Source: Nonlabens marinus S1-08 (GTDB lineage Bacteria > Bacteroidota > Bacteroidia > Flavobacteriales > Flavobacteriaceae). From it: DNA of 64,000 nucleotides. Position numbers and translations under genes: made by a program. The stretch spans positions 2,285,779 through 2,349,778 of the forward strand of contig NZ_AP014548.1 in assembly GCF_000831385.1 (NCBI RefSeq), given 5' to 3'. How positions within the stretch are numbered: position 1 is the first letter of the stretch; every line of letters begins with the position of its first letter. This document shows positions 500 to 63,973 of the stretch, piece after piece. Under the pieces are notes generated by a model. It saw only the letters and a list, made by a program, of their open reading frames with translations. It had not been told where the DNA came from and searched no databases.

Positions 500-511
500 C
501 TTTCGCGAAAG
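500..511. repeat. Dispersed palindrome, copy 1 (12-bp core)
   Basis: CTTTCGCGAAAG lies 8 bp beyond the stop codon of the symporter gene. The right flank keeps the usual GCGAA and the left flank has diverged, so this is a half-decayed intergenic copy. Confidence 0.85.
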
Positions 512-519
512 CGAACCCA

Positions 520-2250
520 TTAAAATAACTTCTTGCGCAATCCTAAAATACCACCGGCGCATGCTAGAAAAAATCCTAATAAGGCGAGACCTATAATCGT
601 TTGACCGTACAGGAGCTTTCCAATGGAAAACAGCAAGCTGTAAACGCCTGCTACACCTAATAGAAAGGCAATGGTTTTAAATTGGAAATTATGAAATTTA
701 GATTCCTTGCCAAAGATGGCTTGGTTGAATTTTGCTAGGGTATCAGCACTAGTAGGTTGGGTCATAAAGGTCACTAAAAGCCAGGCAATGCTGGTCACCA
801 GTACGTTCAAACAAATTTTCTCATAGCCGGCAAGATCTGTAAATAAGGCGCCGTCCAGTCTGGCATTTACAAAAAAGGCAAGTGCCATTATAAAGGAAAC
901 TCCCATAGCCGTAATCTCTGACCACGGGTTGATGCGGTACCAGAACCAGCGCAGGATAAACAACAATCCAGAACCAGCACCTATTTGAATGACTAGGTCA
1001 AAAGCGTCTTTTGCTTCTTCCAGGACCAGTGCAAGCAAGCCGGCAAGAACCATCATGATCACGATGGAAACACGACCCACCACAATTTTGTTAGTTTCGG
1101 TAGCTGTAGGTTTTATAAAGCGGGCGTAAAAGTCGTTGACCACATAACTGGAACCCCAGTTCAAATGGGTGGAGATCGTACTCATAAATGCCGCTACTAA
1201 TGACGTGACCACCAGACCTAAAAGTCCTGCGGGTAAAAAGGTCAACATGGCGGGATAACTCAAGTCATTACGTATGAACTGGCTGCCCAGCCCAGGGAAT
1301 GCGGCGGCTAAGGAATCTAAATTAGGGTAAATAATCAAGGACGCCAGTCCAATAATGATCCATGGCCAAGGTCGCAACGCATAGTGCGCCAGATTAAAAA
1401 AAAGTACCGCCCATGTGGCATTTTTTTCATCTTTGGCCGCCAGCATGCGTTGTGCTACGTATCCGCCGCCGCCTGGCTCTGCTCCCGGATACCAGGTACT
1501 CCACCATTGTACAGCAATTGGAATAATAAAAATCGCCATGAGTAGGTCTGTATTAGAAAAGTCGGGCATCAAGTTGATTTTAGAAATCACGTTAGGGTGG
1601 GAGATCAGGTTTTGCATGCCGCCTATTTCTGGTAGATCCAGAATGTACCAAGTCGCCCAGATGGAACCTACCATCGCAATGATGAACTGTATAAAGTCAG
1701 TAATCAATACGCCTTTCAATCCACCAAGAAGTGAATAGGCCACTGTAACTATACTGGCAATAATTAGAGTCCTACCTGCGGTAAAGCCAAACATCACATG
1801 ACCAATTTTAATGGCCGCAAGACAAACGGTTCCCATGATAATGACATTGAATACCACGCCCAGGTAAACTGCTCTAAAACCTCTTAAAAAGGCGGCGCTT
1901 TTACCGTCATACCTCAATTCATAAAACTCTAGGTCTGTAGTGATCCCGCTACGGCGCCACAAGCGCGCATAAAAAAAAACGGTCAGCATGCCTGTCAATA
2001 GAAACGCCCACCATTCCCAGTTTCCAGCCACTCCAGTAGTCCTTACAATACCAGCCACAAGGTTAGGCGTGTCTGCAGCAAAGGTGGTAGCGACCATAGA
2101 TACCCCTAACAACCACCAGGGCATGTTGCGACCAGAAAGGAAAAAGGAATCGGCACTTTGAGAGCTTTTACGGGAGACGATAATTCCTACTACTAGGGAA
2201 ATCACAAAAAAGGCGATAATAATCGCAAAATCAATAAATTCTAAAGCCAT
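520..2250 (-). CDS. Sodium:solute symporter (SSS family)
   Basis: A 576-residue inner-membrane protein with about 13-14 hydrophobic segments, the usual size for Na+-coupled sugar, amino acid or carboxylate uptake. The N-terminus has the SSS-type run S-A-D-S-F-F-L-S-G-R (about residues 31-40) followed by MPWWLLGVSMVATTFAADTP, a typical TM2 region with the Ser/Thr/Ala pattern used in sodium binding. The family signature around AQRMLAAKDEKNA is near residue 270. It is divergent from pfkA and alone in its unit, so the substrate cannot be read from context; sugar is a guess from the neighbouring glycolytic genes and a LacI-like site upstream. The ATG at 2250 fits the start of the first membrane segment. 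A decayed palindrome copy follows the stop codon. Confidence 0.85.
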   Translation of the reverse strand: MALEFIDFAIIIAFFVISLVVGIIVSRKSSQSADSFFLSGRNMPWWLLGVSMVATTFAADTPNLVAGIVRTTGVAGNWEWWAFLLTGMLTVFFYARLWRRSGITTDLEFYELRYDGKSAAFLRGFRAVYLGVVFNVIIMGTVCLAAIKIGHVMFGFTAGRTLIIASIVTVAYSLLGGLKGVLITDFIQFIIAMVGSIWATWYILDLPEIGGMQNLISHPNVISKINLMPDFSNTDLLMAIFIIPIAVQWWSTWYPGAEPGGGGYVAQRMLAAKDEKNATWAVLFFNLAHYALRPWPWIIIGLASLIIYPNLDSLAAAFPGLGSQFIRNDLSYPAMLTFLPAGLLGLVVTSLVAAFMSTISTHLNWGSSYVVNDFYARFIKPTATETNKIVVGRVSIVIMMVLAGLLALVLEEAKDAFDLVIQIGAGSGLLFILRWFWYRINPWSEITAMGVSFIMALAFFVNARLDGALFTDLAGYEKICLNVLVTSIAWLLVTFMTQPTSADTLAKFNQAIFGKESKFHNFQFKTIAFLLGVAGVYSLLFSIGKLLYGQTIIGLALLGFFLACAGGILGLRKKLF

Positions 2251-2268
2251 GCACTGAAAAGTTATTAA

Positions 2269-2282
2269 CGAAAACGTTTGAA
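2269..2282. promoter_or_regulatory. Possible LacI-family operator
   Basis: CGAAAACGTTTGAA contains the 8-bp palindrome AAACGTTT. It resembles LacI/GalR operators, which have a central CG and A/T-rich arms. It lies 19 bp upstream of the symporter ATG, between the symporter and pfkA. It is a single short site and could be chance. Confidence 0.22.
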
Positions 2283-2370
2283 TTTTTATAGAATGCTAAA
2301 TATAAACGAATTCGTAACTTACAATGACGATTCTTTAATAGATTAGCTAGCAGATTGTCAAAAAGAGTGA

Positions 2371-3354
2371 ATGAATAAAATGCAAAAAATAGGTGTGATG
2401 ACCTCTGGTGGTGACTCTCCAGGGATGAATGCCGCGATACGTTCTGTAGTTCGTACTTGTGCCTATCATGAATTGGAATGCATCGGTATCTACCGTGGTT
2501 TTCAAGGATTGATAGAGGGTGATTTTAAGTCTATGGATGCCCGTAGCGTCAATAATATTGTCAATAAAGGCGGTACTATTTTGAAGAGCGCTCGATCTAA
2601 GGAGTTTATGACGAGAAAGGGACGTGATACCGCTTTCGCGAAAGCAAAAGAACAAGGACTTGATGCATTAGTCGTTATAGGTGGTGATGGAAGTTTCACT
2701 GGAGCCATGATTTTCTCTGACGAAAATGATTTTCCAGTCATGGGAATCCCAGGAACTATTGATAATGACATTTACGGTACCAGCTCGACTTTAGGATACG
2801 ATACCGCATTGAATACGGTAGTGGATGCAATTGATAAAATACGCGATACCGCTAGTTCCCATAACCGACTCTTTTTTGTCGAAGTAATGGGGCGTGATGT
2901 AGGTAACATTGCACTGAACGCAGGCGTTGGAGCAGGAGCAGAAGAAATTTTGATTCCTGAAGAAAATTTAGGTAAAGACCGTTTGTTAGAGAGTTTGAAA
3001 CGCAGTCGTGCTTCCGGTAAGTCTTCTAGTATCGTTGTGGTAGCAGAAGGTGATAAAACTGGTGATAATGTTTTTGAATTGAAGGATTATGTAGAAGCAA
3101 ATTTACCAGAATACGAAGTTCGAGTATCAGTTTTAGGTCACATGCAACGCGGTGGCTCACCATCCTGTTGGGATCGAGTCCTAGCGAGCCGTATGGGAGT
3201 TAAAGCAGTAGAAAGCTTGATGGAAGGCAAATCTAACTATATGGTGGGTATACAGGATACTAAAATTGTACTCTGCCCGCTGGATCAAGCTGTCAAAGGA
3301 AAAACAGATATTGATAAGGAATTGATACGTGTGAGTGATATCATGACGACTTAA
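2371..3354 (+). CDS. pfkA: ATP-dependent 6-phosphofructokinase
   Basis: Phosphorylates fructose 6-phosphate to fructose 1,6-bisphosphate, the committed cytosolic step of glycolysis. The protein is 327 residues, the bacterial PfkA length (about 320). Motifs seen: GGDSPGMNAAIR (about 14-25), GGDGS (about 103-107, Gly-Asp-Gly as in ATP-using rather than PPi-using enzymes), PGTIDNDIYG (about 127-136, with the catalytic Asp), and the substrate segment EVMGRDVG (about 170-177). ATG 2371 was chosen; a second in-frame ATG is at 2380. gapA follows on the same strand after a repeat-filled gap of 249 bp. A copy of the dispersed palindrome at 2632-2645 is read in frame as AFAKAK (about residues 87-92), between conserved blocks and apparently tolerated. 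Confidence 0.97.
   Translation: MNKMQKIGVMTSGGDSPGMNAAIRSVVRTCAYHELECIGIYRGFQGLIEGDFKSMDARSVNNIVNKGGTILKSARSKEFMTRKGRDTAFAKAKEQGLDALVVIGGDGSFTGAMIFSDENDFPVMGIPGTIDNDIYGTSSTLGYDTALNTVVDAIDKIRDTASSHNRLFFVEVMGRDVGNIALNAGVGAGAEEILIPEENLGKDRLLESLKRSRASGKSSSIVVVAEGDKTGDNVFELKDYVEANLPEYEVRVSVLGHMQRGGSPSCWDRVLASRMGVKAVESLMEGKSNYMVGIQDTKIVLCPLDQAVKGKTDIDKELIRVSDIMTT
2632..2645. repeat. Dispersed palindrome inside pfkA (exact 14-mer)
   Basis: Exact GCTTTCGCGAAAGC read as A-F-A-K-A in the pfkA frame. Confidence 0.95.
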
Positions 3355-3358
3355 AAGT

Positions 3359-4608: not shown

Positions 4609-4620
4609 TTTCCTACCTAC

Positions 4621-6820: not shown

Positions 6821-8950
6821 CTAAGATTCTTCTCCAGAATTTTCCTCTTCCGTAGCCTCTTCTTCTTTAACTAATTGACGTTGAAGAATATTCAATTGCT
6901 TCTGTTTCTCTTTAATCACGTCCAATTCCTTTTTCAAATTCGCAATATTTTTACGTTGCTGCACTAAAAAAGGGTTTTTGTCATCTTTTGCGTTGATAAA
7001 CTGAAGATTGTTTTCTAATTGTCGGGTTTCATCTTGTATTTCATCTCTGCGCTTGCGCAAATAAAACCGTTCATTCTTGAAATCGCGATCATCACCTTCC
7101 TTAAGGCTTTCTAATTTGTTGTTGTATTTCAACATTTCCGCATCTACAGCGCTCATTCCAGCTGCTGTCAATTTAGATTTGACAAGCTTTTCAAACTTCT
7201 CCTGTAAGTGTCTTTTGGAATAAGGGATACGACCTAGAGCGTTCCATTCTTCCATAATTGACTCAACCTCCTTCATTATGGTCTCCTTATCATCTTGAGG
7301 AACCAGTTCTTTCAACTTGTCATAAACTTCTACCTTCAAAACAAAATTGGCTAGCTCTTCTTTGCTTTCAGCTTTTTTCTGAGCGTTTTGCTGATCAAAA
7401 AAGGCGTTACACGCTTTTTGGAAGCGTTTCCAAATCTTATCACTGTCTTTGCGAGGTACATGACCTATTTTCTTCCAATCGGCTTGAATGCGCTTCATGG
7501 TGTCTAGAGATTCTTTGAAATTCCCAGCTTCAGAATGCTCTTCAGCAATTTTTACTAACTCTAACTTCTTAGCTAGATTTTCCTGCTGTTCATTTTTCAA
7601 GCCTTTATAAAACTCATTCTTTGCTTTATTGAAGTCTCTTGTAACGCTGCGGTATTGGCTCCAGAGTTCGTTATTTACTGCTTTTGGTGCTGGGCCGGTT
7701 TGTGTAAAGAGTTCTCTTAACGCATTTATTTCCTTAAGACGTTCCTGCCAGTCGCGGTGGCTGCTAGGTTTACTGTCTATAATATTACGCACTTCTTGAA
7801 TGATGTTTTCTTTAATAGTCTGGTGTTTACCTGCCATTTTATCACGCTCCTCATAATACGCCTGGCGACGCTCATGAATCACATCTGACGCTGCTTTAAA
7901 CTCTTCCCAGATAGGATCTCTCAATTCCTTCTCTACTGGGCCAGTATCTTCTTTCCACATGCGGTGCAACTCTTGAAGCTCCCGCAACGCATTATGAACA
8001 TTAGGCTCGTCACCTAACTCCACCGCTCTAGCAATAATCTTTCTACGGAATTCTAGGTTGCGTTCAAAATCTTTGTCTCGCAACTCCTTACTCAAGGAAA
8101 TATAGTCGTAGAAGTTCTGCACGTGCAAGCGGTAATCTTCCCATATGATATTGTAGGCATCGTGTGGTATGCTTCCCGTGTTTTTCCAGTCGTCTTGAAG
8201 TTGATTGAACTTCTTAAAAGTAGATCCTATATTTTCTTCTTCAGTAATCAGGTTTTTGATCCCTTCAATGATGGCTCGTCGCTTTTCAAGGTTCTGTTCT
8301 TTCTCTTTGCGCACCTGACGCTGGAATTCTCCGCGTTGTTTGCGGTAGAGTGCGTGTAGCTCTCTGAATGCTTTACTTTCTGTATTCTTATATTCAAAAT
8401 CAGCAGAACGTTCTTCTTCTGCCAGTTCTAATTGGGCTTTTCTAAAAGCTTCTTGTTGCTCCAGTTGAGTTTCTTTATCGACCGTTTCAAAAGCTTTTTC
8501 AATATCACCTGCTTGTGATTTAATTTTGTTGATAGGGAATTCTTGCATCAAGTGACGCAACTCATCTGTCAACGCCACTATACTCATCTCACTGTAATCC
8601 TTTGGTTCTGGATCACTGGCAGTGGCATCAAATTCCTGATCTGATTCTTCATCATCCTCATCTTCATCCACATCAACGATAGGGTCTTCCGTACTTTCTA
8701 CTTTGTCCTTTTCTTCAACGATAGCATCCTCATGAGTGGAGTCTTGATCATCTTGCTTGGTTGTAGTTTTTACTCCTGTCTTTTTAGCTGTTTCAGGTGA
8801 TTCTTTCTCTACCTCAATATGCTCTTCCGGCTTTGATTTTTGGGATTCGTCTACCATTGCATTTTCAAGGGTATCTTCTTGCAAGTGATCTTTTTGATCC
8901 TTGTTTAGCTGTCCGTCTGCATCTTTAGGCAGGTTATCTTTCGTGTCCAT
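6821..8950 (-). CDS. DUF349 domain-containing coiled-coil protein
   Basis: A 709-residue, highly charged cytosolic protein. Residues 1-125 are very acidic and low in complexity (runs of D and E). From about 140 to 640 there are several DUF349 units of roughly 70 residues, recognised by the recurring W-K-x-x-G-x-V/I-P element, for example WKNTGSIPHDAYNIIWEDYR, WKKIGHVPRKDSDKIWKRFQ and WNALGRIPYSKRHLQEKF. The C-terminus is a long coiled coil (RKRRDEIQDETRQLENNLQF onwards). The family is common in Bacteroidota and of unknown role; some DUF349 proteins elsewhere have been linked to DNA or RNA metabolism. It lies 64 bp after aroE on the same strand and is closed by a strong terminator. Confidence 0.85.
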   Translation of the reverse strand: MDTKDNLPKDADGQLNKDQKDHLQEDTLENAMVDESQKSKPEEHIEVEKESPETAKKTGVKTTTKQDDQDSTHEDAIVEEKDKVESTEDPIVDVDEDEDDEESDQEFDATASDPEPKDYSEMSIVALTDELRHLMQEFPINKIKSQAGDIEKAFETVDKETQLEQQEAFRKAQLELAEEERSADFEYKNTESKAFRELHALYRKQRGEFQRQVRKEKEQNLEKRRAIIEGIKNLITEEENIGSTFKKFNQLQDDWKNTGSIPHDAYNIIWEDYRLHVQNFYDYISLSKELRDKDFERNLEFRRKIIARAVELGDEPNVHNALRELQELHRMWKEDTGPVEKELRDPIWEEFKAASDVIHERRQAYYEERDKMAGKHQTIKENIIQEVRNIIDSKPSSHRDWQERLKEINALRELFTQTGPAPKAVNNELWSQYRSVTRDFNKAKNEFYKGLKNEQQENLAKKLELVKIAEEHSEAGNFKESLDTMKRIQADWKKIGHVPRKDSDKIWKRFQKACNAFFDQQNAQKKAESKEELANFVLKVEVYDKLKELVPQDDKETIMKEVESIMEEWNALGRIPYSKRHLQEKFEKLVKSKLTAAGMSAVDAEMLKYNNKLESLKEGDDRDFKNERFYLRKRRDEIQDETRQLENNLQFINAKDDKNPFLVQQRKNIANLKKELDVIKEKQKQLNILQRQLVKEEEATEEENSGEES

Positions 8951-9014: not shown

Positions 9015-9809
9015 TTACCTATTCCAAAGTTCCCAAGCTCGCTCTGCTTGATGCACAAGCATTTGATATCCATTCACTGCCTTAGCACCTTGTTGCAATC
9101 CTTTTTTCATGAAAAGTGTCTGGCTAGGATTGTAGACCAGGTCGTAAAGAATGTGCTGTTTTCCTAGATGTTCATAAGGGATTAATGGACATTGATGAAT
9201 ATCTGGATGGGTGCCTAAAGGTGTGGTGTTGATGATCAATTTTACTTGAGAAAGTACATCCTTATTCAGCACTTTGTAATCGATGGTATGTTCGTCATCA
9301 CCTGGCGATCGACTTACTTTGAGAAAGGGGATTTGTAAGGATTCTAGCGTATAGGCAACTGCTTTAGAAGCACCTCCAGTTCCTAAAATAAGAGCATTGC
9401 CGTCAATAGGTAAAAAGGGCTCCAGGCTCTTAGCAAAACCGTAGGCATCGGTATTGTGACCCGTCCAGATGTTATCCTCAATGACCACTGTATTTATCGC
9501 GCCTATGATTTCAGCCTCTTCACTCACACGATCTACCACTTTCAACATGCTTTCCTTATAGGGAATTGTCACATTAAGACCTCTCAATATTTCTGATTTT
9601 CCTAGCGTGGTGCGTTGAGATGGGTTGTAAAGTACGCTTTCGCGAAAGCGAACTAGATCTTCCTCACTGCCCAATTCAAAATTGCGGTACTCATGATCCT
9701 TGAGTTTCAACTCTTCGAACTTTTGTGAAAAATAGGCACGGGAAAAACTGTAATCCAGTCGCGCACCGATCAATCCAAAAATGCTAGACGGGATCTTTTT
9801 GGTTTCCAT
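9015..9809 (-). CDS. aroE: Shikimate 5-dehydrogenase
   Basis: Reduces 3-dehydroshikimate to shikimate with NADPH in chorismate synthesis. 264 residues, normal for AroE. Signatures: FGLIGARLDYSFSRAYFSQKF (shikimate-site Ser pair, about 11-31), LNVTIPYKESML with the catalytic Lys (about 79-90), GAINTVV and HNTDAYGF with the catalytic Asp (about 104-125), the glycine-rich NADP loop GTGGASKAVA (about 143-152), and INTTPLGTHP. The ATG at 9809 overlaps the end of the upstream DUF368 gene by 26 bp, which implies translational coupling. A palindrome copy at 9635-9650 is read as RFRES (about 55-59) in the N-terminal domain. aroB is at 39749, so the pathway genes are scattered. Confidence 0.95.
   Translation of the reverse strand: METKKIPSSIFGLIGARLDYSFSRAYFSQKFEELKLKDHEYRNFELGSEEDLVRFRESVLYNPSQRTTLGKSEILRGLNVTIPYKESMLKVVDRVSEEAEIIGAINTVVIEDNIWTGHNTDAYGFAKSLEPFLPIDGNALILGTGGASKAVAYTLESLQIPFLKVSRSPGDDEHTIDYKVLNKDVLSQVKLIINTTPLGTHPDIHQCPLIPYEHLGKQHILYDLVYNPSQTLFMKKGLQQGAKAVNGYQMLVHQAERAWELWNR
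9635..9650. repeat. Dispersed palindrome inside aroE (16 bp)
   Basis: Perfect palindrome CGCTTTCGCGAAAGCG, read as R-F-R-E-S in the aroE frame. Confidence 0.95.
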
Positions 9810-11823: not shown

Positions 11824-13095
11824 TTACCTATGAATAGTTTGCTTACGATCTGGACCTACACTAACTATTTTAATAGGAATGTTCAATTCTTTTTCTAAGA
11901 AATGGATGTAGTCAGTTAGTTCCTTTGGGAACTCTTTCTCGTCTCTTAGCTTAGTCAAATCCTCTTTCCAGCCTGGCATTTCTGTATAGACTGGTTCTAC
12001 GTTTTCTGGCTCGATATTATAAGGCAGGTGTTTGATCTCTTTACCACGGTACTTGTAAGCAGTAGCGACTTGGATTTTGTCAAACCCACTCATGACATCA
12101 CCTTTCATCATCATTAGTTGAGTCACACCATTGATTTCACAAGCATATCTCAAGGCCACAAGATCTAACCATCCACAACGTCTCGCTCTACCAGTAGTAG
12201 CACCAAATTCGTTTCCAACCCGTGCCATAATCTCGCCATACTCATCGTCTAATTCCGTTGGGAATGGTCCGCTACCCACACGAGTTGTGTATGCTTTGAA
12301 GATTCCATAAACTTCACCTATTTGTGTAGGTGCTACTCCCAGTCCTGTACAAGCTCCAGCTGCTGTAGTGTTAGAAGAGGTTACAAATGGATAGGTTCCA
12401 AAATCTATATCTAGTAAGGATCCTTGTGCACCTTCAGCCAGGATGGTTTTTCCATCTCGTTGTGCTTGCTGTAGATATTCTTCAGAATCGATAAAGGTCA
12501 ATTCTTTCAACGCTTTCACTGCTGCGAAAAATTCTTTTTCTAGTTCCTCAAGGTTGTATTCAATATCCACATTGTGGAAACCGATCATCGCCTCATGCTT
12601 GTCAGCCAGATTGCGGTATTTTTCTTTCCATGTAGGCAATTCCAGATCTCCTAAACGTATGCCGTTTCGGCCAGTCTTGTCCATGTAAGTAGGTCCGATA
12701 CCCTTCAGCGTACTTCCAATTTTTGCTTTCCCTTTTGATGCCTCACTTGCCGCATCTAGCAAACGGTGCGTAGGTAGGATCAAGTGCGCCTTTCGCGAAA
12801 GCAATAATACCTTTTTAATGTCTAGATCGAATTGCTTTAAATTATCCAATTCTTTCTTGAAAATCACTGGGTCGATTACGACTCCATTTCCCACGATGTT
12901 GATCGCTTCCTTGTGGAAGATCCCGCTAGGAATGGTGTGTAATACATGTTTGATACCATCAAATTCTAGAGTGTGCCCTGCGTTAGGTCCTCCTTGAAAT
13001 CTTGCTATGATATCGTATTTTGAAGTAAGTACGTCTACGATCTTACCTTTTCCCTCGTCGCCCCATTGAAGACCGAGCAATAAATCTACTGCCAT
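11824..13095 (-). CDS. purA: Adenylosuccinate synthetase
   Basis: Makes adenylosuccinate from IMP, aspartate and GTP, the first step from IMP to AMP. 423 residues, full length. It opens with LLLGLQWGDEGKGKIVDVL (about 5-23), the signature GTP loop with catalytic Asp. GGPNAGHTL with the catalytic His follows at about 35-43, then GIGPTYMDK (about 132-140) and TTGRARRCGWLDL (about 300-312, IMP/Asp site). The ATG overlaps the fur stop codon (TAATG), so it is the third gene of a rel-fur-purA unit. A 12-bp palindrome core at 12790-12801 is read as LSRKA (about 98-102). Confidence 0.97.
   Translation of the reverse strand: MAVDLLLGLQWGDEGKGKIVDVLTSKYDIIARFQGGPNAGHTLEFDGIKHVLHTIPSGIFHKEAINIVGNGVVIDPVIFKKELDNLKQFDLDIKKVLLLSRKAHLILPTHRLLDAASEASKGKAKIGSTLKGIGPTYMDKTGRNGIRLGDLELPTWKEKYRNLADKHEAMIGFHNVDIEYNLEELEKEFFAAVKALKELTFIDSEEYLQQAQRDGKTILAEGAQGSLLDIDFGTYPFVTSSNTTAAGACTGLGVAPTQIGEVYGIFKAYTTRVGSGPFPTELDDEYGEIMARVGNEFGATTGRARRCGWLDLVALRYACEINGVTQLMMMKGDVMSGFDKIQVATAYKYRGKEIKHLPYNIEPENVEPVYTEMPGWKEDLTKLRDEKEFPKELTDYIHFLEKELNIPIKIVSVGPDRKQTIHR
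12790..12801. repeat. Dispersed palindrome inside purA (12-bp core)
   Basis: CTTTCGCGAAAG core with diverged outer bases, read as L-S-R-K-A in the purA frame. Confidence 0.85.
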
Positions 13096-15767: not shown

Positions 15768-15829
15768 AACAGTAAAAATACATTAGTTTGTACGATTAAT
15801 CAATATAGAAAGGAGCCATATGTGTGTGG

Positions 15830-15857
15830 TTTTTTCGCTTTCGCGAAAGCGAAAAAA
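15830..15857. repeat. Dispersed palindrome, longest copy (28 bp, perfect)
   Basis: TTTTTTCGCTTTCG followed by its exact complement gives a 28-bp perfect palindrome with the common core. It lies between the rel start and the end of the NTF2-like gene. No U tract follows on either strand, so it is not a standard terminator. Confidence 0.95.
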
Positions 15858-15901
15858 TCAAAAATCATAAGGTGTGAAATAGCAGGTAACCCAATTGGGA
15901 T

Positions 15902-16472: not shown

Positions 16473-18833
<2,361 letters not shown>

Positions 18834-23435: not shown

Positions 23436-23457
23436 GTTCGCTTTCGCGAAAGCGAAC
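23436..23457. repeat. Dispersed palindrome upstream of the SDR gene (22 bp)
   Basis: Perfect palindrome extending GTTCG beyond the core on each side, located in the promoter/leader interval of the SDR gene at 23409. Confidence 0.95.
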
Positions 23458-31048: not shown

Positions 31049-31074
31049 GCTATTGTTCAATATGCATATGGGAC

Positions 31075-40852: not shown

Positions 40853-40872
40853 TTCGCTTTCGCGAAAGCGAA
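40853..40872. repeat. Dispersed palindrome between aroB and proline dehydrogenase (20 bp)
   Basis: Perfect 20-bp palindrome, 31 bp upstream of the aroB ATG and 80 bp upstream of the proline dehydrogenase -7 box. Confidence 0.95.
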
Positions 40873-44512: not shown

Positions 44513-44923
44513 TCATCGATGAACGACAGCACTTACTCGAATCTCCCTTTTTTGTTCTGTTAGGGTTACTATTTCAACGTGCTGGTAATCAGATAGTAAT
44601 GGTATTGATAAATCTGGCCATTCTATGAGTTTTAGTGCTGGGCTCTCTAGGTATTCTTCGGCTCCTATATCGTGCAGTTCGTCGATTGAGTTGAGTCTGT
44701 AGAGATCAAAATGGTATATAATGCCGTTTGAACCCTTGTATTCATTGACTATACTAAAAGTAGGTGAAGAAATGTCTTCAGTCACTCCTAACTTTTTACA
44801 GATCGCTGTAATCAATGTCGTCTTACCGCTACCCATAGGAGCATTAAATAAAAGGGTATTTACTTTCGCGGAAGCGATAACATATTCTGCCGCCTTATCT
44901 ATGTCCTTTATATGATACTCCAT
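44513..44923 (-). CDS. tsaE: tRNA t6A biosynthesis ATPase TsaE
   Basis: 136 residues. P-loop FNAPMGSGKTTLITAI (about 26-41), then DISSPTFSIVNEY (about 54-66) and YHFDLYRLNSIDELHDIG (about 75-92), the signature TsaE (YjeE) block, and LIEWPD. It is the ATPase that drives turnover of the TsaBD complex making N6-threonylcarbamoyladenosine in ANN-reading tRNAs. It starts directly after the porX stop (44924) with no intervening base, so translation is coupled. A decayed palindrome (ACTTTCGCGGAAGC, 44862-44875) lies in the segment read as IASAKVNT. Confidence 0.93.
   Translation of the reverse strand: MEYHIKDIDKAAEYVIASAKVNTLLFNAPMGSGKTTLITAICKKLGVTEDISSPTFSIVNEYKGSNGIIYHFDLYRLNSIDELHDIGAEEYLESPALKLIEWPDLSIPLLSDYQHVEIVTLTEQKREIRVSAVVHR
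44863..44876. repeat. Decayed palindrome inside tsaE
   Basis: CTTTCGCGGAAGCG differs from the core by one internal A-to-G change and an altered left flank; read as A-S-A-K on the minus strand. Confidence 0.6.
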
Positions 44924-46477: not shown

Positions 46478-46482
46478 ATCTG

Positions 46483-46490
46483 TATATTTG
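46483..46490 (+). promoter_or_regulatory. -7 box of the HD-domain gene
   Basis: TATATTTG, exact TAnnTTTG, 18 nt before the TTG at 46509 and downstream of an ATG at 46464. It decides the start of the HD gene. It lies only 6 bp from the porX ATG on the opposite strand. Confidence 0.55.
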
Positions 46491-46508
46491 TTGAAACGCT
46501 TGCATCTA

Positions 46509-51526: not shown

Positions 51527-52456
51527 TTGAAATTTTCCACCACATATAGATTATCTGAAATCGCTGAAATACTCAACTGTGAGTATGTAGGCGATGCTAA
51601 TTTTCCTGTGACTGGAATGAATGAAATCCATGTGGTGACACCTGGAGACATCGTTTTTGTTGACCATCCTAAGTATTACCACAAGGCACTGGAAAGTGCA
51701 GCGACCATTGTTTTAATCAATAAAAAGGTTGATTGTCCAGAGGGCAAAGCCTTATTACTGTCAGACGACCCATTTCGAGATTTTAATAAATTAACACAGC
51801 ATTACAATCCTTTTTCCGCTTTCGCGAAAGCGGAACAACCCACCTATAAATTAGGAAAAAACTGTATTATCCAGCCTAACGTATTCATTGCAAATGACGT
51901 CGTCATAGGAGACAACTGTGTGATTCATAGTAATGTTTCCATTAACAATGGTTGTGTCATAGGTAATAATGTAACCATACATTCAGGAACCGTTTTAGGA
52001 ACTGATGCGTTTTACTATAAACGCCGTGCAGATGGTTATGATAAATTGCTTAGCAATGGACGAGTGGTTATAGAAGACAATGTAGAAATAGGTGCCCTGT
52101 GTACCATTGATCGTGGTGTGAGCGGCGATACCACCATAGGTTACGGCTCTAAACTGGATAATCAGGTGCACATAGGACATGATACGGTTTTAGGAAAACA
52201 CGTTTTGATTGCTAGCCAGACGGGAATTTCTGGATGTGTGGTGATTGAAGATGAGGCAAAAATATGGGGACAGGTAGGAATACGTAGTGATGTGACTATA
52301 GGCAAAGGAGCAGAAGTATATGCTCAAAGTGGTATTTCTAAAAATGTACCAGCTGGAACCAGTGTATTCGGATCTCCAGCGTCAGATTCAAAAGAAAAGT
52401 TTAAAGAGTTGGCTGCTGTCCGTATGCTGCCTAACTTTATGAAAAATAATAAATAA
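51527..52456 (+). CDS. LpxD-like acyltransferase paralogue
   Basis: 309 residues from TTG 51527 (KFSTTYRLSEIAEILNCEY); the next ATG is 29 codons in and would cut the domain. The N-terminal domain (about 1-100) resembles that of LpxD (DIVFVDHPKYYHKALE). From about 110 a beta-helix has hexapeptides such as NVFIANDVVIGDNCVIHSNV. IDRGVSGDTTIG and DNQVHIGHDTVLGKHVLIAS (about 210-230) carry a His like that of LpxD. Whether it acts in lipid A synthesis or acylates another sugar nucleotide is open. A 22-bp palindrome copy is read as FSAFAKAEQ (about 97-105) at the domain linker. Confidence 0.82.
   Translation: MKFSTTYRLSEIAEILNCEYVGDANFPVTGMNEIHVVTPGDIVFVDHPKYYHKALESAATIVLINKKVDCPEGKALLLSDDPFRDFNKLTQHYNPFSAFAKAEQPTYKLGKNCIIQPNVFIANDVVIGDNCVIHSNVSINNGCVIGNNVTIHSGTVLGTDAFYYKRRADGYDKLLSNGRVVIEDNVEIGALCTIDRGVSGDTTIGYGSKLDNQVHIGHDTVLGKHVLIASQTGISGCVVIEDEAKIWGQVGIRSDVTIGKGAEVYAQSGISKNVPAGTSVFGSPASDSKEKFKELAAVRMLPNFMKNNK
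51814..51835. repeat. Dispersed palindrome inside the second lpxD-like gene (22 bp)
   Basis: Perfect 22-bp palindrome TTCCGCTTTCG plus complement, the longest genic copy, placed between the two domains of the protein. Confidence 0.95.
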
Positions 52457-55064: not shown

Positions 55065-57083
55065 ATGATCTGGATCTGGTTGACGCTCGCAGCTTGCGCA
55101 GCTATCATTATTGCTTTGATCCAGTACAATTATTTGTTCTCTAGAGCAAGAGACAAAAGAAAACCGTGGTTTGCCGTTTTACGGGCGATCACGGTTTTTT
55201 CTATTTTGGTTTTATTCATTTCTCCTAAGTTTGAAAGTACCAGCTACCAAACCTTAAAGCCTCAGCTTGTGGTAATGGTGGATAATAGCATCTCCATAGA
55301 ACAGCTAGGAATGAGTGATGCCTTAAACACTGATGTATTGAACATTAAGAATGACAGCGAGCTCAATAAGAAATTTGAAGTACTTTTCTATAATTTTGAT
55401 GCGTCTGTTACCCCAAGTGATAGCCTTTCTTTCAATGGAAAATCTACCGATATTTCTAAAGCTATTTCAGAACCACAAGAGCTCTACAGGGACAGAAATA
55501 AATCAATTGTACTACTTACTGACGGGAATCAGACGGTGGGTAAGAGCTATCAATATGAAAAGCTAGATCGCAAAACGCATTTGTATCCTATTGTTTATGG
55601 TGATACCACAAACTATCCAGATTTAAAAATCAACCAACTTAATGTCAATCGTTTCAGCTATTTGAAGAATGAGTATCCAGTAGAGGTTTTTCTCAGTTAC
55701 TCAGGAACTGACGATGTAAGTACTACTTTCAAAATAGAAGAAGGCAATACGACCTTACATCAAGAATCGGTTCGGTTTAACTCAGCTCAAAAGTCGGCCG
55801 TTCTTAATTTCAATTTAACGAGTAATTCAGTAGGACTTCATAAGATGGTGGCACAAGTGGAGACCTTGCCTCAGGAAAAAAACACGAGTAATAATAAACG
55901 TGATTTTGCGGTCGAGGTAATCGATCAACAATCTAAAATTCTATTGCTCACCACAACAATTCATCCAGATATTGCTGCGATAAAGAATGCTATTGAAAGT
56001 AATCAGCAACGTAAGCTAACTATCAAGAACATCAACGATCCTGTCGATATCAATGAGTTCAATATGGTGATACTTTATGGGTATAATTCCGCTTTCGCGA
56101 AAGCGAACTCTACCATCAAAACTCTTAACAAGAACACCTGGATTGTTCTAGGAACTAAGCCGGATATTTCTTTTTTGAATCGAAATAACGAAGCTTTCCA
56201 GATTGAAAATTACCCTCAGTTTGATGATGTGCAACCTATTGTGAATGAGGCATACCCGAACTTTAATCTCGAGTCCTTCAATTTTGATGGGTACCCGCCA
56301 GTGCAATCACCCTTTGGCCAGATTACTGCGAGTACAACTTTACAACCTTTAATGTTTAAGCAAATAGGGAATGTGAAGACGCAACAGCCACTGTGGTTTA
56401 CTTACGACTTAGGGACCACAAGACATGCTGTTTTTGCAGGAAGCGGTTTATGGCGATGGCGCACTCAAAACTATCTTGACTCTAAGGATTTTAGGAATTT
56501 TGATGAGTTGATCAATTCTCAAATCCAATATTTATCCAGTAATAAAAAGCGGGATCGCTTGAGTATTGACTATAAGACCTTCTATTATGAGAATGACCGC
56601 ATCTTGATTTCAGCCCAATACTTAAATGACAATTATGAATTTAAAGATGATGGGATTCTTAATATTCAACTAACAAATGCAGATACTAAAGAGCATATCA
56701 TCAGGCCGTTAGTAATTTCAAATTATAATTATTTAGTTGATTTAAGCGGGTTGCCTGCTGGATCTTATGAGTTTTTAATAACCGCTTCAAATGAGAAACT
56801 AACACGTTCTGGCAACTTTAATATTTTAGAATTTGATATTGAAAACCAGTTTGTAAATGCAAATTACCAAGGATTACAAACTATCGCTACTGATAACAAT
56901 TTGTTCTTTCCACGACAAATACAAGAATTAAAAGAAGTATTGCTTAAGGATTCTTTAATGCAAGATGTGGAAAGGCAGGAAGTCTCTTACCAATCTTTGA
57001 TTGATTGGAAGTTATTGATGGGTATTATCCTTACCTTACTCGCGATAGAATGGTTCTTAAGAAAATACAACGGACTTATTTAA
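55065..57083 (+). CDS. Membrane protein with VWA-like region
   Basis: 672 residues. Two hydrophobic segments at the N-terminus (about 2-22 and 37-54) and one near the C-terminus (LLMGIILTLLAIEWFL, about 648-663). After the second segment LVVMVDNSISIEQLGM (about 68-83) gives a D-x-S-x-S metal-site motif, and SIVLLTDGNQTVGKSYQYEK (about 145-164) the second half of a von Willebrand A fold. The middle is extracytoplasmic. This layout matches BatA/BatB-like or glutamine-amidotransferase-like membrane proteins of Bacteroidota. A palindrome is read as NSAFAKANS (about 342-350). SPFH gene follows at 12 bp. Function unknown. Confidence 0.78.
   Translation: MIWIWLTLAACAAIIIALIQYNYLFSRARDKRKPWFAVLRAITVFSILVLFISPKFESTSYQTLKPQLVVMVDNSISIEQLGMSDALNTDVLNIKNDSELNKKFEVLFYNFDASVTPSDSLSFNGKSTDISKAISEPQELYRDRNKSIVLLTDGNQTVGKSYQYEKLDRKTHLYPIVYGDTTNYPDLKINQLNVNRFSYLKNEYPVEVFLSYSGTDDVSTTFKIEEGNTTLHQESVRFNSAQKSAVLNFNLTSNSVGLHKMVAQVETLPQEKNTSNNKRDFAVEVIDQQSKILLLTTTIHPDIAAIKNAIESNQQRKLTIKNINDPVDINEFNMVILYGYNSAFAKANSTIKTLNKNTWIVLGTKPDISFLNRNNEAFQIENYPQFDDVQPIVNEAYPNFNLESFNFDGYPPVQSPFGQITASTTLQPLMFKQIGNVKTQQPLWFTYDLGTTRHAVFAGSGLWRWRTQNYLDSKDFRNFDELINSQIQYLSSNKKRDRLSIDYKTFYYENDRILISAQYLNDNYEFKDDGILNIQLTNADTKEHIIRPLVISNYNYLVDLSGLPAGSYEFLITASNEKLTRSGNFNILEFDIENQFVNANYQGLQTIATDNNLFFPRQIQELKEVLLKDSLMQDVERQEVSYQSLIDWKLLMGIILTLLAIEWFLRKYNGLI
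56090..56105. repeat. Dispersed palindrome inside the VWA-like gene (16 bp)
   Basis: Perfect CGCTTTCGCGAAAGCG, read as S-A-F-A-K-A in frame. Confidence 0.95.
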
Positions 57084-59715: not shown

Positions 59716-60117
59716 TTAGTTGTCAAGGAATTTTGACTTCAATTCAGGTGTAGGAATCATACAGTTGTCTTTTTTTCCAAACCAATCGTATCTATTGCGA
59801 GCGATAAAATCGTAAACGGAATTGGTCAAAAACTTAGGTAAAACCACAAATGCATAAAGTAAAGGCCAGGCACCTGATAGGTTTTTGGCGATCCTTAAGG
59901 CAGCACTAGCTTTGATATGCACTTCATCATTCTCTAGTAAAACAATGCTGTCAATTTCCTGAGGATCAATTCCATGCTGATCTAATAATTTAACGCCTAC
60001 ATCGCTTTGTAACGCTGCAAATCTAAATTGATCTTTAGGATCATGATCAATAATGAAAGTGACTGCTTTATTGCAGAGGTTACATACACCATCAAAAAGG
60101 ATTGTTTTCTTTTCCAT
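59716..60117 (-). CDS. Thiol-disulfide oxidoreductase DCC family (DUF393)
   Basis: 133 residues. The eponymous DCC motif appears as DGVCNLCNKAVTFIIDHDPK (about 9-28), with Cys pair C-x-x-C, followed by FRFAALQSDVG. LLYAFVVLPKFLTNSVYDFI and RNRYDWFGKKDNCMIP (about 105-120) match the family's R-Y-x-W-F-G-K end. DCC proteins are small thioredoxin-like redox proteins of unknown substrate. It overlaps the MutS2 stop codon by one base (TAATG), so it is translated with mutS2. Confidence 0.9.
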   Translation of the reverse strand: MEKKTILFDGVCNLCNKAVTFIIDHDPKDQFRFAALQSDVGVKLLDQHGIDPQEIDSIVLLENDEVHIKASAALRIAKNLSGAWPLLYAFVVLPKFLTNSVYDFIARNRYDWFGKKDNCMIPTPELKSKFLDN

Positions 60118-62288
60118 TATTTCTTGACTGGTTCTAATTGCTCTAGACTTACTAAGGTAGTAAACATGCCATAATTAACTGTAGCTTTTCCTTTTTCAAT
60201 AGAATCAATGGTACCAATAGATTTTGAGTCGATTAAACGCACCCGTTCGTCAATTTTGAACTCGTGAACCGGCTTTTCAACCACCACTTCTTGTTTAGGA
60301 ACGGCTTTGCGTTGCTCTCGAATTTTAGTCACTTTTTGGATGACTTCATTTTCTACCTGCTTTTGTTTTCCCTGTGCTTTTTTGGCCTCTGCCTTTTTCT
60401 TAGCAAGCGGTTGCCTTTTTACATTTTCAGTGATCACCATTTTCATCAACTCATCTAATAAAAGTCGCTTCTTCTTATTGTTATGAAAATCCTTAGCTAG
60501 TTGATCAAACTTTTTACCAAGCTGTATTTGCCGCTGATTTTTATCATAGAGCTCTTGAAAATCTTCCAATTTTTGCTGTACGCGATCTTGAGTGTCTTCA
60601 AGTTTATTAGCCTTCTGAGTGGCTTGAACCTCTTTAGTCCTCAATGATTCATTATTACGCCTTAAATCAGAACGTTCCTTTTGCAACGCAGCAATCGATT
60701 TGTCAAAACGTATTTTACCTCGCTCTACCTTTTTCTTTGCCTTATTTATGAGTGAGTAGGGGATTCCATTTTTTTGTGCCACTTCAAATGTGAATGAACT
60801 CCCAGCTTCACCTAATTGCAGCTGATATATAGGTTCTAAGGAACGTGCATCAAACAACATATTAGCATTGGTCATTTCTGGCAATTCGTTGGCCAGCATT
60901 TTGAGGTTTGTGTAGTGCGTTGTTATAATTCCATAGGATTTGCGAGAATACATTTCTTCCAGCATACTCTCCGCTAAAGCACCTCCCAATTCAGGATCAG
61001 ACCCTGTACCGAATTCATCAATAAGGAATAAAGTTTTATCATCTGCTTTACGTAAAAAGCCGCGCATATTTTTTAAACGATAACTGTAGGTACTTAGATG
61101 ATTATCAATACTTTGATTATCTCCTATGTCTGTAAGTATATTATCAAAAAAACAAACCCTACTTTTTTCATGAACAGGAATGAGCATTCCTGCCTGGGTC
61201 ATAACCTGCAGTAACCCAATTGTCTTAAGAGTAATCGATTTACCTCCAGCATTAGGACCTGAGATGACGATAATGCGATTGTTAGGCGTCAACTGTATAC
61301 TTTGTGGGTATGTTTTTTCCCCACGCTCTTGATTTGCTACCCACAATAATGGGTGATAGGCATCTACTAGATCTAATTCTCGATTTTCAGTAATCATAGG
61401 CAGCACGCCATGAATCTTACGAGCATACTTGGCTTTGGCTGAAATTACATCGGTTGCCGACAGATACTCTCTATAGATTTCAAAATCCTCTTCAAAGTAC
61501 CTCATAAAATCAGTCAACTCTTTGAGAATGCGCTGTATTTCCTCGTGTTCTTCAATCTCGAGTTCAGACAGCTTTCGCGAAAGCGTTAACACGCGCTCTG
61601 GTTCTATATAAGTGATGCTACCGGTCTTGGAACTGCCCATGATCTTTCCCTTTACCTTGCGGCGGTGCATGGAACGAACGGCGAGGACGCGACGGTTTTC
61701 TACGACACTTTCTCGGATTTCATCGAGATACTCTAACTTAAGATAATGCGTTAAGGCTGCTCCAAAGCTCCCATTGAGCTGCCCACGAACGCTGTTCATT
61801 TCCCTACGCAGATCTTTCAATACAGGTGAGGCATCATCCTTAATTTCTCCAAACCGATCTAGCACCGCATCTACACGCTCTGGAATCTCAGTATTTAATG
61901 GGATTTCATTGGTTCTAGTGGCAAGCTTAGGGAAATGCTCTTCAGTTTTTTTGAAAAAACGTATGTGATCATTGACTGACCTAGGAAGGGTTACCAGCCT
62001 ACGAATGCTTTCTTTTTCTAAAATACTGTTCTCAATTCCTAGCAACTGTAACTCCCGATCTATGGGGTCAAATCCATGATTAGGTATGGAAAACTCAGTG
62101 GTATAAGAGGATAAATACTCGTGGGTTTGCGCTAGTGAATTTTTGATGTCACTGGTTTCTGGATAGGGAACCACATTTGCCATACGGTCTTTACCGTCTT
62201 CAGTACTGCAATAAACCGTGGCTTGTTTGATGACCTTGTCAAACTCAATATCCTGCAAGGTCTTTTTAGAAATTTTCCTCATGCGCAT
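60117..62288 (-). CDS. mutS2: MutS2-like ATPase without Smr domain
   Basis: 723 residues. The MutS core and clamp (about 1-320) are followed by the ATPase: Walker A SGPNAGGKSITLKTIGLL (about 342-359), Walker B FLIDEFGTGSDPELGGAL (about 418-435), and TTHYTNLKML. A coiled coil (about 520-650) and a KOW-like end (VRLIDSKSIGTIDSIEKGKA) follow. The Smr nuclease domain (about 80 residues) found at the C-terminus of Bacillus MutS2 is missing; the protein stops after the KOW-like part. It may act on ribosome collisions or recombination intermediates like other MutS2. A -7 box ends 2 nt before the ATG. A palindrome is read as LTLSRKLSE near 234-242. Confidence 0.9.
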   Translation of the reverse strand: MRMRKISKKTLQDIEFDKVIKQATVYCSTEDGKDRMANVVPYPETSDIKNSLAQTHEYLSSYTTEFSIPNHGFDPIDRELQLLGIENSILEKESIRRLVTLPRSVNDHIRFFKKTEEHFPKLATRTNEIPLNTEIPERVDAVLDRFGEIKDDASPVLKDLRREMNSVRGQLNGSFGAALTHYLKLEYLDEIRESVVENRRVLAVRSMHRRKVKGKIMGSSKTGSITYIEPERVLTLSRKLSELEIEEHEEIQRILKELTDFMRYFEEDFEIYREYLSATDVISAKAKYARKIHGVLPMITENRELDLVDAYHPLLWVANQERGEKTYPQSIQLTPNNRIIVISGPNAGGKSITLKTIGLLQVMTQAGMLIPVHEKSRVCFFDNILTDIGDNQSIDNHLSTYSYRLKNMRGFLRKADDKTLFLIDEFGTGSDPELGGALAESMLEEMYSRKSYGIITTHYTNLKMLANELPEMTNANMLFDARSLEPIYQLQLGEAGSSFTFEVAQKNGIPYSLINKAKKKVERGKIRFDKSIAALQKERSDLRRNNESLRTKEVQATQKANKLEDTQDRVQQKLEDFQELYDKNQRQIQLGKKFDQLAKDFHNNKKKRLLLDELMKMVITENVKRQPLAKKKAEAKKAQGKQKQVENEVIQKVTKIREQRKAVPKQEVVVEKPVHEFKIDERVRLIDSKSIGTIDSIEKGKATVNYGMFTTLVSLEQLEPVKK
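61571..61584. repeat. Dispersed palindrome inside mutS2 (exact 14-mer)
   Basis: Exact GCTTTCGCGAAAGC, read in the third phase as T-L-S-R-K-L. Confidence 0.95.
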
Positions 62289-62290
62289 TA

Positions 62291-62298
62291 CAAAAATA
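62291..62298 (-). promoter_or_regulatory. -7 box of mutS2, leaderless geometry
   Basis: TATTTTTG on the minus strand, exact TAnnTTTG, 2 nt before the first ATG (62288) and 8 nt before a second in-frame ATG (62282). The message is probably leaderless. Confidence 0.5.
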
Positions 62299-62434
62299 GG
62301 GTAGTAGTGGCAGTTGTTATGTGGGATTTTCGCTTTTTTAACGCCCTAAACCTCTTTCTTTATTGTGGACTACTTCATGGCTTTGACCTTGGAGTTTGCT
62401 AGTAGACTTATTTAAATTTACAAAAAACAAGTGC

Positions 62435-63100
62435 ATGCCCATAAAAATCGATGAGAGTTGGAAAGAACTATTGCGAGAAGAATTTAGCCAAGAGTATTTT
62501 GAGCAACTGATTGAATTCGTCACTGCGGAATATAAGCGTACCACCTGTTACCCGCCGGGTAGCAAGATATTTGCGGCATTTGATCGTACACCCTTTGAGC
62601 AAGTTAAAGTGGTCATTATAGGGCAAGATCCTTATCATGGTCCTGGACAAGCTAATGGTTTATGCTTCTCAGTTGCTGATGGGGTAGCGCATCCACCATC
62701 GTTGATGAATATTTTTAAAGAACAGCAAAAAGATCTTAATAATCAGTACCCTAATTCTGGAAACCTAGAAAGTTGGGCAGATCAAGGCGTATTATTACTG
62801 AATACCGTGCTCACCGTAGAACAGGGAAAGGCTGGAAGTCACCAGAATAAAGGCTGGGAGCGCTTTACTGATCAAGTCATCAAGACCTTGTCTAATGAGC
62901 GCGAACAATTGGTTTTCCTTTTATGGGGTGGCTTTGCCAAGGGTAAATTAAAATTAATTGATGAGAAAAAACACTTTGTATTGACCAGTGGCCATCCTTC
63001 ACCATTGAGTGCTAATCGCGGCTATTGGTTTGGAAATAAACATTTCTCTAGGACTAATCGATACTTGCAGGAAAAAGGCAAGGAGCCGATCAATTGGTAA
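62435..63100 (+). CDS. ung: Uracil-DNA glycosylase
   Basis: Removes uracil from DNA at the start of base-excision repair. 221 residues from ATG 62435 ([17 protein letters not shown]), the usual length; an in-frame ATG at 62396 adds 13 unlikely residues. Motif A is [21 protein letters not shown] (catalytic Asp, shown here in part as GQDPYHGPG, about 65-73), with [20 protein letters not shown] (about 125-144). The intercalation loop is [14 protein letters not shown] with the active-site His (about 189-202). It stands alone between mutS2 and the substrate-binding gene and ends one base before the convergent stop. Confidence 0.96.
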
Positions 63101-63973
63101 TTATTCCTCCTCGTCTGGAAATGGTAAGTCGTATATGAGTTTTTCAAGCGTGATTTCTTCTTTAGAAATTCCCACCGCTTGAAACTGTTTGTTAATTTTT
63201 GCAACGGTTTTTGCTTTCAGTTGTTGGTCTGTAAATTCAGTTCGTAGCAACCATTGTTGAACATCTCCTACCTGCAAATCGTAATGTGAAGCAATGGTTC
63301 GGTCGATACTTGGAATGTGTTTGAAATCAAGTGAGTAGGTGTTTATTATTTGAATCATTTTAATCAATGCTTCTTCCTTCTCAGCAATACAGTTATCCGT
63401 TGCAGCGATCACAAAACTAGGCCATGGAGTAGCAATGGTTTCTAGCCTTTTAAATATCCCTTGATCCACATAAGGCTGTGTCATATAGCGTTCCCATAGG
63501 AACAATTGCGCTTCTCCAGCACTTAGGGATTTTACAGCACCATCTAACGTATTTACCAACTCAAACTTTAAAGTTTTTGGGTTCCAGTCGTGCCTTCTTG
63601 CGAGAAGGTAGCTCATCAAATGAGAGCCACTACCATAGCGACTAATGGCAATTACTGGATCAATAAGCTGTGCGGTATCTTCTGCAATTAGACTTGCAGG
63701 CGCATGGACACCCCATAATAAAGGGGATTCAACATATACCTGCAAGATTTTGGATGGATTTCCAGCAATTATATCCTTGACAATCCCATCAGTTAAAATA
63801 CAGGCTACGTCTAGTTCTCCATCCCTTAAAGATTGGCACATGCGACCGGTACCTTCTGGTATGTCTTGCCACTGTAAGTCGATGTTCGCTTTCGCGAAAG
63901 CGTTATCCTCTAGAGCTAAGTGCCATGGAAGATTGAAGTGTTCAGGAACGCCGCCTATGGTAATGGTTGTCAT
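63101..63973 (-). CDS. Substrate-binding-like protein (NMT1/THI5 or SsuA fold)
   Basis: 290 residues with no signal peptide, unlike a periplasmic binding protein. The two-lobe fold is suggested by TTITIGGVPEHFNLPWHLAL (about 2-21), DGELDVACILTDGIVKDIIA and SRYGSGSHLMSYLLARRHDW, typical of NMT1/THI5 and SsuA-like solute binders, including the 'S/Y-G-x-G-S' loop. As no ABC genes follow in the window, it could be a cytosolic enzyme of the THI5 type or a sensor. A palindrome copy is read as NAFAKANI near residue 24-31. Stop abuts the ung stop. Family assignment is moderate. Confidence 0.75.
   Translation of the reverse strand: MTTITIGGVPEHFNLPWHLALEDNAFAKANIDLQWQDIPEGTGRMCQSLRDGELDVACILTDGIVKDIIAGNPSKILQVYVESPLLWGVHAPASLIAEDTAQLIDPVIAISRYGSGSHLMSYLLARRHDWNPKTLKFELVNTLDGAVKSLSAGEAQLFLWERYMTQPYVDQGIFKRLETIATPWPSFVIAATDNCIAEKEEALIKMIQIINTYSLDFKHIPSIDRTIASHYDLQVGDVQQWLLRTEFTDQQLKAKTVAKINKQFQAVGISKEEITLEKLIYDLPFPDEEE
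63887..63902. repeat. Dispersed palindrome inside the substrate-binding-like gene (16 bp)
   Basis: Perfect CGCTTTCGCGAAAGCG, read as N-A-F-A-K-A on the minus strand. Confidence 0.95.

Follow-up and report, generated by a model that had tools for sequence, protein, structure and literature searches.

HIP1 (highly iterated palindrome 1; GCGATCGC) of the cyanobacteria is present in excess throughout its lineage, both within and between genes, and its function is unsettled. The uptake sequences of the Pasteurellaceae and Neisseriaceae (uptake signal sequences, USS, and DNA uptake sequences, DUS) have an extended flank signal, and Rickettsia palindromic elements are inserted blocks of about 100–150 bp. 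USS and DUS are also evenly spaced, as stated in PMC1939737. The palindromic sites matS, NBS (Noc-binding site) and parS belong to the dimeric, chromosome-organising proteins MatP, Noc and ParB, respectively. Here, a 14-bp palindrome, GCTTTCGCGAAAGC, is described from Nonlabens marinus S1-08 (Flavobacteriaceae), in a stretch of 64,000 nucleotides of the chromosome (contig NZ_AP014548.1, positions 2,285,779 to 2,349,778) that is called the window below. It is a highly iterated palindrome of the HIP1 kind; its sequence, anatomy and exactness are new. The chances are about even that it is the site of a putative sequence-specific chromosomal DNA-binding protein.

Abundance, exactness and lineage range

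A first-pass annotation, made from the letters of the window alone, had counted 18 copies, and the recount agrees: 14 are exact, two retain an exact 12-bp core (499 and 12789), one differs at a single internal position (47580) and one at two positions (44862). The number of exact copies expected from base composition is 0.00011, which is in line with the earlier estimate of approximately 0.0002. At up to three mismatches the window has 20 matches, compared with 2.22 ± 1.66 in shuffled sequence (largest value, 7), and the two three-mismatch matches, at 42257 and 49118, are at chance level.

The genome from which the window was taken (G000; a single contig of 2,915,920 bp) has 728 exact 14-mers, or about one palindrome per 4 kb, and the reversed control has none. 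Twenty samples around the chromosome each contain 3–9 copies per 20 kb. All of the 22 further Nonlabens genomes carry the palindrome, with 288–857 exact copies each, while none of the 16 genomes of other genera in the same comparison carries any. Two outcomes had been named at the outset as speaking against the element, namely a near-random count in the genome and confinement of the copies to the window; the count is far above random and the copies extend across the genus.

The family was surveyed with the inner 10-mer as the query, in 397 genomes of 237 genera. Counts are high in four Nonlabens (595–774) and in two other genomes, G226 (559) and G242 (1107), which have 408 and 857 exact 14-mers, respectively; the remaining genomes have 0–34 inner 10-mers and the reversed control 0–28. 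Across the phylum, 16 of 296 genomes have the 14-mer, one of them G000, and the other 15 have at most four copies. When named genomes were scanned with a 27-base form, which is biased to the Nonlabens flank so that other dialects would escape, 26 stretches were found, all labelled Nonlabens, Dokdonia or ‘Flavobacteria bacterium BBFL7’. The copies in four genomes with the label Dokdonia number 570, 610, 737 and 905. In a RelA plus ParB tree of 26 genomes, from which Dokdonia was left out, G226, G242 and the motif-poor G180 (nine copies) form one clade with a support of 100, apart from Nonlabens, and the other 14 genomes without high counts fall outside both clades. RelA identity by itself did not place G226 and G242. 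This uneven range may be due to loss, transfer or separate origin.

In some genomes outside these lineages, the copies are clustered. In G112, all 16 lie within one 78-kb stretch (G112:C3:32331-110029), and in G322, 18 of 19 lie within two stretches (C4 and C5). In G196 (L208/L209), they are found near integrase, resistance-nodulation-division (RND) efflux and multicopper oxidase genes, and a spacing of 933 bp between sites is common to all three genomes. The simplest reading is that these clusters are islands from motif-bearing hosts, which bring the palindrome to genera otherwise without it, with the motif marking the donor, and the motif is thus usable as a fingerprint of DNA that originated in these genera. 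The copies in G180 and G364 (six copies) are scattered. A scan of viral sequences matched at least 120 stretches. Seven viral contigs of unassigned host, chosen because they hold copies, have 2–5 each in 12–40 kb, and one palindrome-bearing contig encodes a head protease and an endolysin. The Nonlabens phages P12024S and P12024L have no copies in 35.7 kb each, where about nine each are expected at host density; as the two are closely related, they count as one observation. A 30-base consensus query of annotated plasmid and phage collections returned no Flavobacteriaceae record (best E value, 2).

The copies are nearly all exact. Mismatch variants were included in the counts, a check that the first-pass annotation had proposed, and 464 kb of G000 contain 114 exact, seven one-mismatch and four two-mismatch copies, where a third-order Markov model predicts 0.0, 0.0 and 0.7, respectively. 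Individual sites are also retained between species. The genomes G004 and G008 represent two species with 95.0% identity over 189 kb; each has 44 sites, of which one and two, respectively, are unaligned when matches below 300 bp and off the diagonal are dropped. All 43 alignable G004 sites and all 42 alignable G008 sites are exact in the other genome. None of 602 core bases has changed, compared with 1289 of 25,800 background bases (5.0%; P = 9e-14), and positions 12–26 from the centre have changed at 34 of 1290 bases (2.6%; P = 5e-5). At positions 27–40 constraint is not significant. At 78.6% identity, 13 of 15 alignable sites are exact from G004 to G020 and 13 of 14 in the reverse direction, where 0.6 are expected. 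Between G000 and G022, three of four are exact (reverse, three of three), and between G000 and G019, two of four, the other two being at one mismatch (reverse, two of three).

Individual loci give a similar picture. Upstream of relA, where the spacers otherwise align poorly, the palindrome stands out: of 21 Nonlabens loci, 15 have an exact 12-bp core, two have one mismatch and four lack it. A copy inside the parB gene is at the same place in eight of nine Nonlabens. At the coding site 12789, also compared at 21 loci, relatives that lack the palindrome differ by substitutions and the alignment has no indel. In the spacer upstream of relA, G007 and G014 (91.8% identical; L036 and L044) differ by the loss of a site through nine substitutions in 18 bp, next to about 70 bp of identical left flank, and G014 has another copy nearby. 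This is a block change rather than stepwise decay. Taken together, the comparisons point to strong purifying selection on single sites, acting on the core and the flanks.

The 52-bp element and its placement

The base profile of the element was obtained from 247 sites in 1.17 Mb of five Nonlabens genomes, with orthologous sites kept in. G is present at position 8 from the centre in 91% of arms, positions 9–11 are A-rich and position 12 is T in 54%. Left–right concordance is clearly over expectation only at position 9 (0.52 vs 0.40). The symmetric extension to 16–28 bp that had been described for the window is borne out by positions 8 and 9, whereas the sequence further out is not palindromic. 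Instead, the outward-running strand has a G content of 0.03–0.13 at positions 11–26 (background, 0.197), which returns to 0.19 at position 27 and is followed by a weaker dip at positions 31–38. The depletion is alike on both sides and reaches 26 bp from the centre, and the element unit is about 52 bp. An example of the whole element, the palindrome with its G-depleted outward strands, spans 15818–15869 of the window. The strand that runs inward, toward the palindrome, is C-poor and G/T-rich.

Control 10-bp palindromes of the form TT......AA from the same genome have a G content of 0.192 (182 arms), so the depletion is not a by-product of anchoring the profile on palindromes. Further out than about 12 bp, complementarity between the sides is no higher than composition predicts, and the element is therefore not a longer hairpin. 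Each strand of the palindrome has GCGAAAGC, which we take to be a very stable DNA mini-hairpin. The edge of G depletion is the same in G242 as in Nonlabens and is weaker in G226 (GC content 0.45; 22 sites). The lineages have dialects at position 9, where T is preferred in G242 (TACGC...GCGTA) and A in the Nonlabens genome G000 (TTCGC...GCGAA). A mutational signature, in which deamination of an exposed strand would deplete G from the flanks, is disfavoured because positions 12–26 vary less, not more, than background.

Parts of the palindrome are near expectation when alone. Outside palindromes, the half-site GCGAAAGC is seen 23 times (16 expected), the half-site GCGAAAGCGAA twice (2.7 expected) and TCGCGA 102 times on both strands (96 expected). 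The whole palindrome is needed.

Spacing was tested with the first 50–100 listed sites of G000, G004, G242 and G226. For the first 100 of the 728 sites in G000, the coefficient of variation (CV) of the gaps is 0.62, compared with 0.99 for random placement, and the earlier description of copies as evenly spread holds for this genome. Close neighbours are avoided in all four genomes: gaps below 1 kb number 4 of 99 in G000 (23 expected), 5 of 93 in G004 (18 expected), 2 of 49 in G242 (10 expected) and 0 of 99 in G226 (12 expected). Overall regularity is found in G000, G226 and G242. Gaps of 16–30 kb occur. Within the first 100 sites of G000, the largest gap covers a run of small, co-directional open reading frames (ORFs) that resembles a ribosomal-protein cluster by gene sizes alone, and two gaps in G004 cover stretches with a GC content of 0.5 and the appearance of ribosomal RNA (rRNA) genes. 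Another gap in G000 (L213:6289-11005; about 68–73 kb in G000) has low GC and holds type I restriction-modification genes, for a methylase and a specificity subunit, and an AAA ATPase.

Of 113 sampled sites, 75 are in ORFs and 38 are intergenic; a crude ORF caller assigns about 90% of the DNA to ORFs. The 34 intergenic sites with both neighbours comprise 22 co-directional, seven divergent and five convergent cases, which matches the number of bases in each class. A transcription terminator or promoter element was rejected, since intergenic sites track these base counts and the window has no match in Rfam. No change in density is visible from origin to terminus, with the origin taken at parS, and the side from which the fork arrives has little effect (G 0.095 vs 0.080).

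A putative binding protein and the other explanations

The data ask for a local factor that needs the whole palindrome, tolerates next to no mismatches, has a range of kilobases and is blind to the direction of transcription and replication. Its sensitivity would reach across 26 bp to either side, and its preference there would differ between the strands. The palindrome may thus be the core of a recognition element of about 52 bp with two-fold symmetry, and we infer that it is bound by a dimeric protein. This would be a dedicated protein, most simply a homodimer, which would read the element as double-stranded DNA and act on the chromosome, not on transcripts. Each bound site would serve a few kilobases, so that a second site close by would add little and one per stretch would be kept; one useful site per stretch would give the spacing of roughly 4 kb in Nonlabens. 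The loss of a site would be costly enough for point mutants to be purged. The likeliest role would be in the organisation or maintenance of the chromosome, for example in condensing or anchoring it or in forming supercoil or repair domains, and any exact role is speculative. A protein that moves outward from the dyad as it opens or tracks DNA would fit the G-poor outward strands. The first-pass annotation had left the choice between a spreading small element and the site of an abundant, lineage-specific protein that binds, methylates or recombines DNA. The second is the better supported, by the limited lineage range, by half-sites that are not enriched and by the signs of purifying selection on core and flanks.

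A fuller form of this proposal is more tentative and falls short of an even chance. It would be a chromosome-wide site system of the Flavobacteriaceae, in which the palindrome of a 52-bp dyad is recognised as duplex DNA and a bound machine tracks or opens the outward strands, which are free of G as far as 26 bp. The sites would be held at regulated distances and required by long-resident DNA, as a chromosome-organising or self-DNA mark of a new kind in two separate clades.

Several points weigh against a protein-binding site. A plain dimer site would not usually have strand-asymmetric flanks that are G-poor outward, and these flanks are the part least explained. Spacing in G004 lacks overall regularity (CV 0.92, P = 0.25) owing to long gaps, though short gaps are avoided there. 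Conservation at 78.6% identity concerns the alignable part alone, as 29 of 44 sites are unaligned from G004 to G020 and 37 in the reverse direction; at 74–77% identity few sites are alignable, and 10 of 14 window sites are unaligned in G019 and likewise in G022. Finally, the binding protein was not found in a search with PF17762 or by inspection of the densest stretch sampled. This stretch and its 270-bp pair of sites lie in histidine biosynthesis genes, with no candidate binder there.

The PF17762 search covered 26 genomes (PF02195 was not searched) and found no extra ParB/Noc paralogue tied to the motif. Each of the 26 has one ParB of about 300 amino acids (aa), and eight have a form of 599–616 aa, three of these being motif-bearing. 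Canonical parS, GTTYCACGTGRAAC, is kept in all 26 with at least two copies each, mostly about 1.9 kb apart. As a separate observation, Nonlabens prefers the parS form GTTTCACGTGAAAC and many others GTTCCACGTGGAAC, which parallels S versus K/N in the ParB recognition helix. A few residues can change ParB/Noc specificity, according to PMC7383237, and the palindrome half-site was considered as a third specificity of this family. It was rejected because the TTTC and GAAA boxes are 2 bp apart, compared with 4 bp in parS; the lack of a motif-linked PF17762 protein and the retention of canonical parS also oppose it.

In natural transformation, the element would instead serve in DNA uptake: a receptor on the cell surface would prefer DNA that has it, and biased uptake followed by recombination would enrich it. 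Its abundance, the avoidance of close copies and the intergenic excess (a third of sampled sites in about 10% of the DNA) favour this reading, as do the dialects at position 9 and the copies on islands, and Riemerella columbina is reported to prefer its own DNA (PMC7965970). Against this, a search for the secretin PF00263, which bears on secretin-based uptake alone, gave matches in just two of the 13 motif-bearing genomes tested and none in G000. A known uptake 10-mer has 438 exact and 947 one-mismatch copies (PMC1939737), compared with the 114 and seven found here, with the proviso that the uptake, Chi and HIP1 words are all shorter than the 14-mer. Conservation of single sites also appears to exceed what a drive model would need, and uptake is unlikely.

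In a Chi-like system, the element would switch a helicase-nuclease to recombination and mark self DNA; a palindrome would work in either direction, and RecA loading would be helped by a keto-rich strand running inward. One site per 4 kb is similar to the density of Chi in Escherichia coli, the C-poor, G/T-rich strand is on the expected side and the two related Nonlabens phages lack copies. However, because Chi is recognised on a single strand, an excess of isolated half-sites would be expected, and no clear excess is seen. RecC (PF04257) is missing from 28 of 28 genomes, AddAB not having been searched, and Chi has 1008 exact and 8855 one-mismatch copies (PMC1939737). A Chi-like role is quite unlikely. 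Methylation of the HIP1 type, in which an orphan methyltransferase would place a mark on an inner palindrome such as TCGCGA and this mark would then be read, is just as hard to credit. It would explain an iterated palindrome across coding and non-coding DNA, as reported for HIP1 (PMC4390886), but TCGCGA is near expectation outside the palindrome, and methyltransferase sites are smaller than a 14-bp core with 26-bp arms.

Very unlikely is a self-mark for defence, where a nuclease or silencer would act on any DNA that goes several kilobases without the element. The chromosome, the islands and the seven selected viral contigs carry the element and the two related Nonlabens phages do not; yet it is in all 23 Nonlabens genomes examined, where defence systems are usually patchy, and there are the gaps of 16–30 kb, some over the rRNA-like or ribosomal-protein-like clusters. 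The spread of a small mobile or copied element, whether through insertion or through templated rewriting, would account for the rarity of near-miss copies and the block change between G007 and G014, but it is highly improbable, as the one coding site compared (12789) shows no indel, sites stay put, and avoided short gaps and constrained flanks ask for a function.

Copies in the window and comparison with known systems

In the window, sites were assigned to ORFs of 100 aa or more. Four exact copies are intergenic: 15837–15850, upstream of relA/spoT; 23440–23453, between the ORFs 22726–23409 and 23501–24391; 33233–33246, between 33214 and 33258; and 40856–40869, with divergent ORFs on either side. 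A fifth site, 499–512, is outside such ORFs and retains the exact 12-bp core with T as its first base. Two copies are in recognisable genes, namely that for catalase/peroxidase (17829–17842 in 16506–18833) and mutS2 (61571–61584 in 60117–62288). On the forward strand, exact copies are found at 2632–2645 (ORF 2371–3354), which has one mismatch in G019 and six in G022, at 51818–51831 (ORF 51527–52456) and at 56091–56104 (ORF 55065–57083). ORFs on the reverse strand contain those at 9636–9649 (9015–9809), 21370–21383 (20660–22504), 30383–30396 (30287–31060), 36535–36548 (35418–36650) and 63888–63901 (63101–63973), together with the exact 12-bp core at 12789–12802, where the first base is C (11824–13095). 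The decayed copies are at 44862–44875 (two mismatches; ORF 44513–44923, reverse strand) and 47580–47593 (one mismatch; ORF 46464–47726, forward strand).

No Rfam model matches the window at its gathering score. The long ORFs 6821–8950 (709 aa) and 55065–57083 (672 aa) have no NCBIfam match at E 0.001. A PorX-type response regulator (44924–46525) and an LpxC–FabZ fusion (48770–50170) are typical of Bacteroidota.

The element resembles several dispersed palindromic or abundant sites and differs from each. It shares with repetitive extragenic palindromic (REP) sequences, bacterial interspersed mosaic elements (BIMEs) and Rickettsia palindromic elements that it is a dispersed palindromic repeat. 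REP/BIME sequences are extragenic, while two thirds of the sampled Nonlabens sites are in ORFs. The Rickettsia elements, an earlier comparison that proved inapt, are much longer insertions, whereas site 12789, the one site examined, aligns to site-less relatives without gaps. With matS/MatP, NBS/Noc and parS/ParB, it has in common a palindromic site suited to a dimeric chromosome-organising protein. However, matS has 23 copies in an 800-kb terminus domain (PMC3330122) and parS few copies with a wider box spacing, compared with hundreds spread uniformly in Nonlabens.

Among abundant words, the likeness to Chi is in density and in a keto-rich strand on the RecA side, and the differences are the half-sites and the absence of RecC. 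USS and DUS also have hundreds of copies, an intergenic excess and lineage dialects; the Nonlabens element differs in being palindromic, in its few imperfect copies, in the rarity of secretin among its carriers and in its strong single-site conservation. HIP1 was an apt comparison from the start, as both are palindromes in lineage-wide excess in and between genes and both lack a settled function. The two differ in the core, which is GCTTTCGCGAAAGC and not GCGATCGC, and in its setting, since the 14-bp core of the Nonlabens element lies within 52 bp whose outward strands are G-poor. HIP1 is also denser than one per 4 kb, and near-misses are fewer in Nonlabens, the HIP1 10-mer having 5648 exact and 1830 one-mismatch copies (PMC1939737). 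In the literature searched, which left most subscription papers outside, the 14-mer and the 12-mer were not found and the inner 10-mer appeared in ten papers, none of which is on Flavobacteriaceae to judge by its title; titles and opening lines of abstracts on Dokdonia or Nonlabens palindromes, iterated palindromes and Flavobacteriaceae repeats do not name the element.

If it is a chromosome organiser, the element matters for the Bacteroidota, for which, to our knowledge, few such systems are known, and if it is a mark of self DNA, it bears on the acceptance of mobile DNA. Why a genome should keep many identical palindromes has been an open question since HIP1. The Nonlabens element adds another example, governed by sharper rules, namely exactness, selection on each site, a fixed extent of 52 bp, avoidance of close copies, family relatives nearly without copies and two related phages without any, and these rules make the question that HIP1 raised a testable one.

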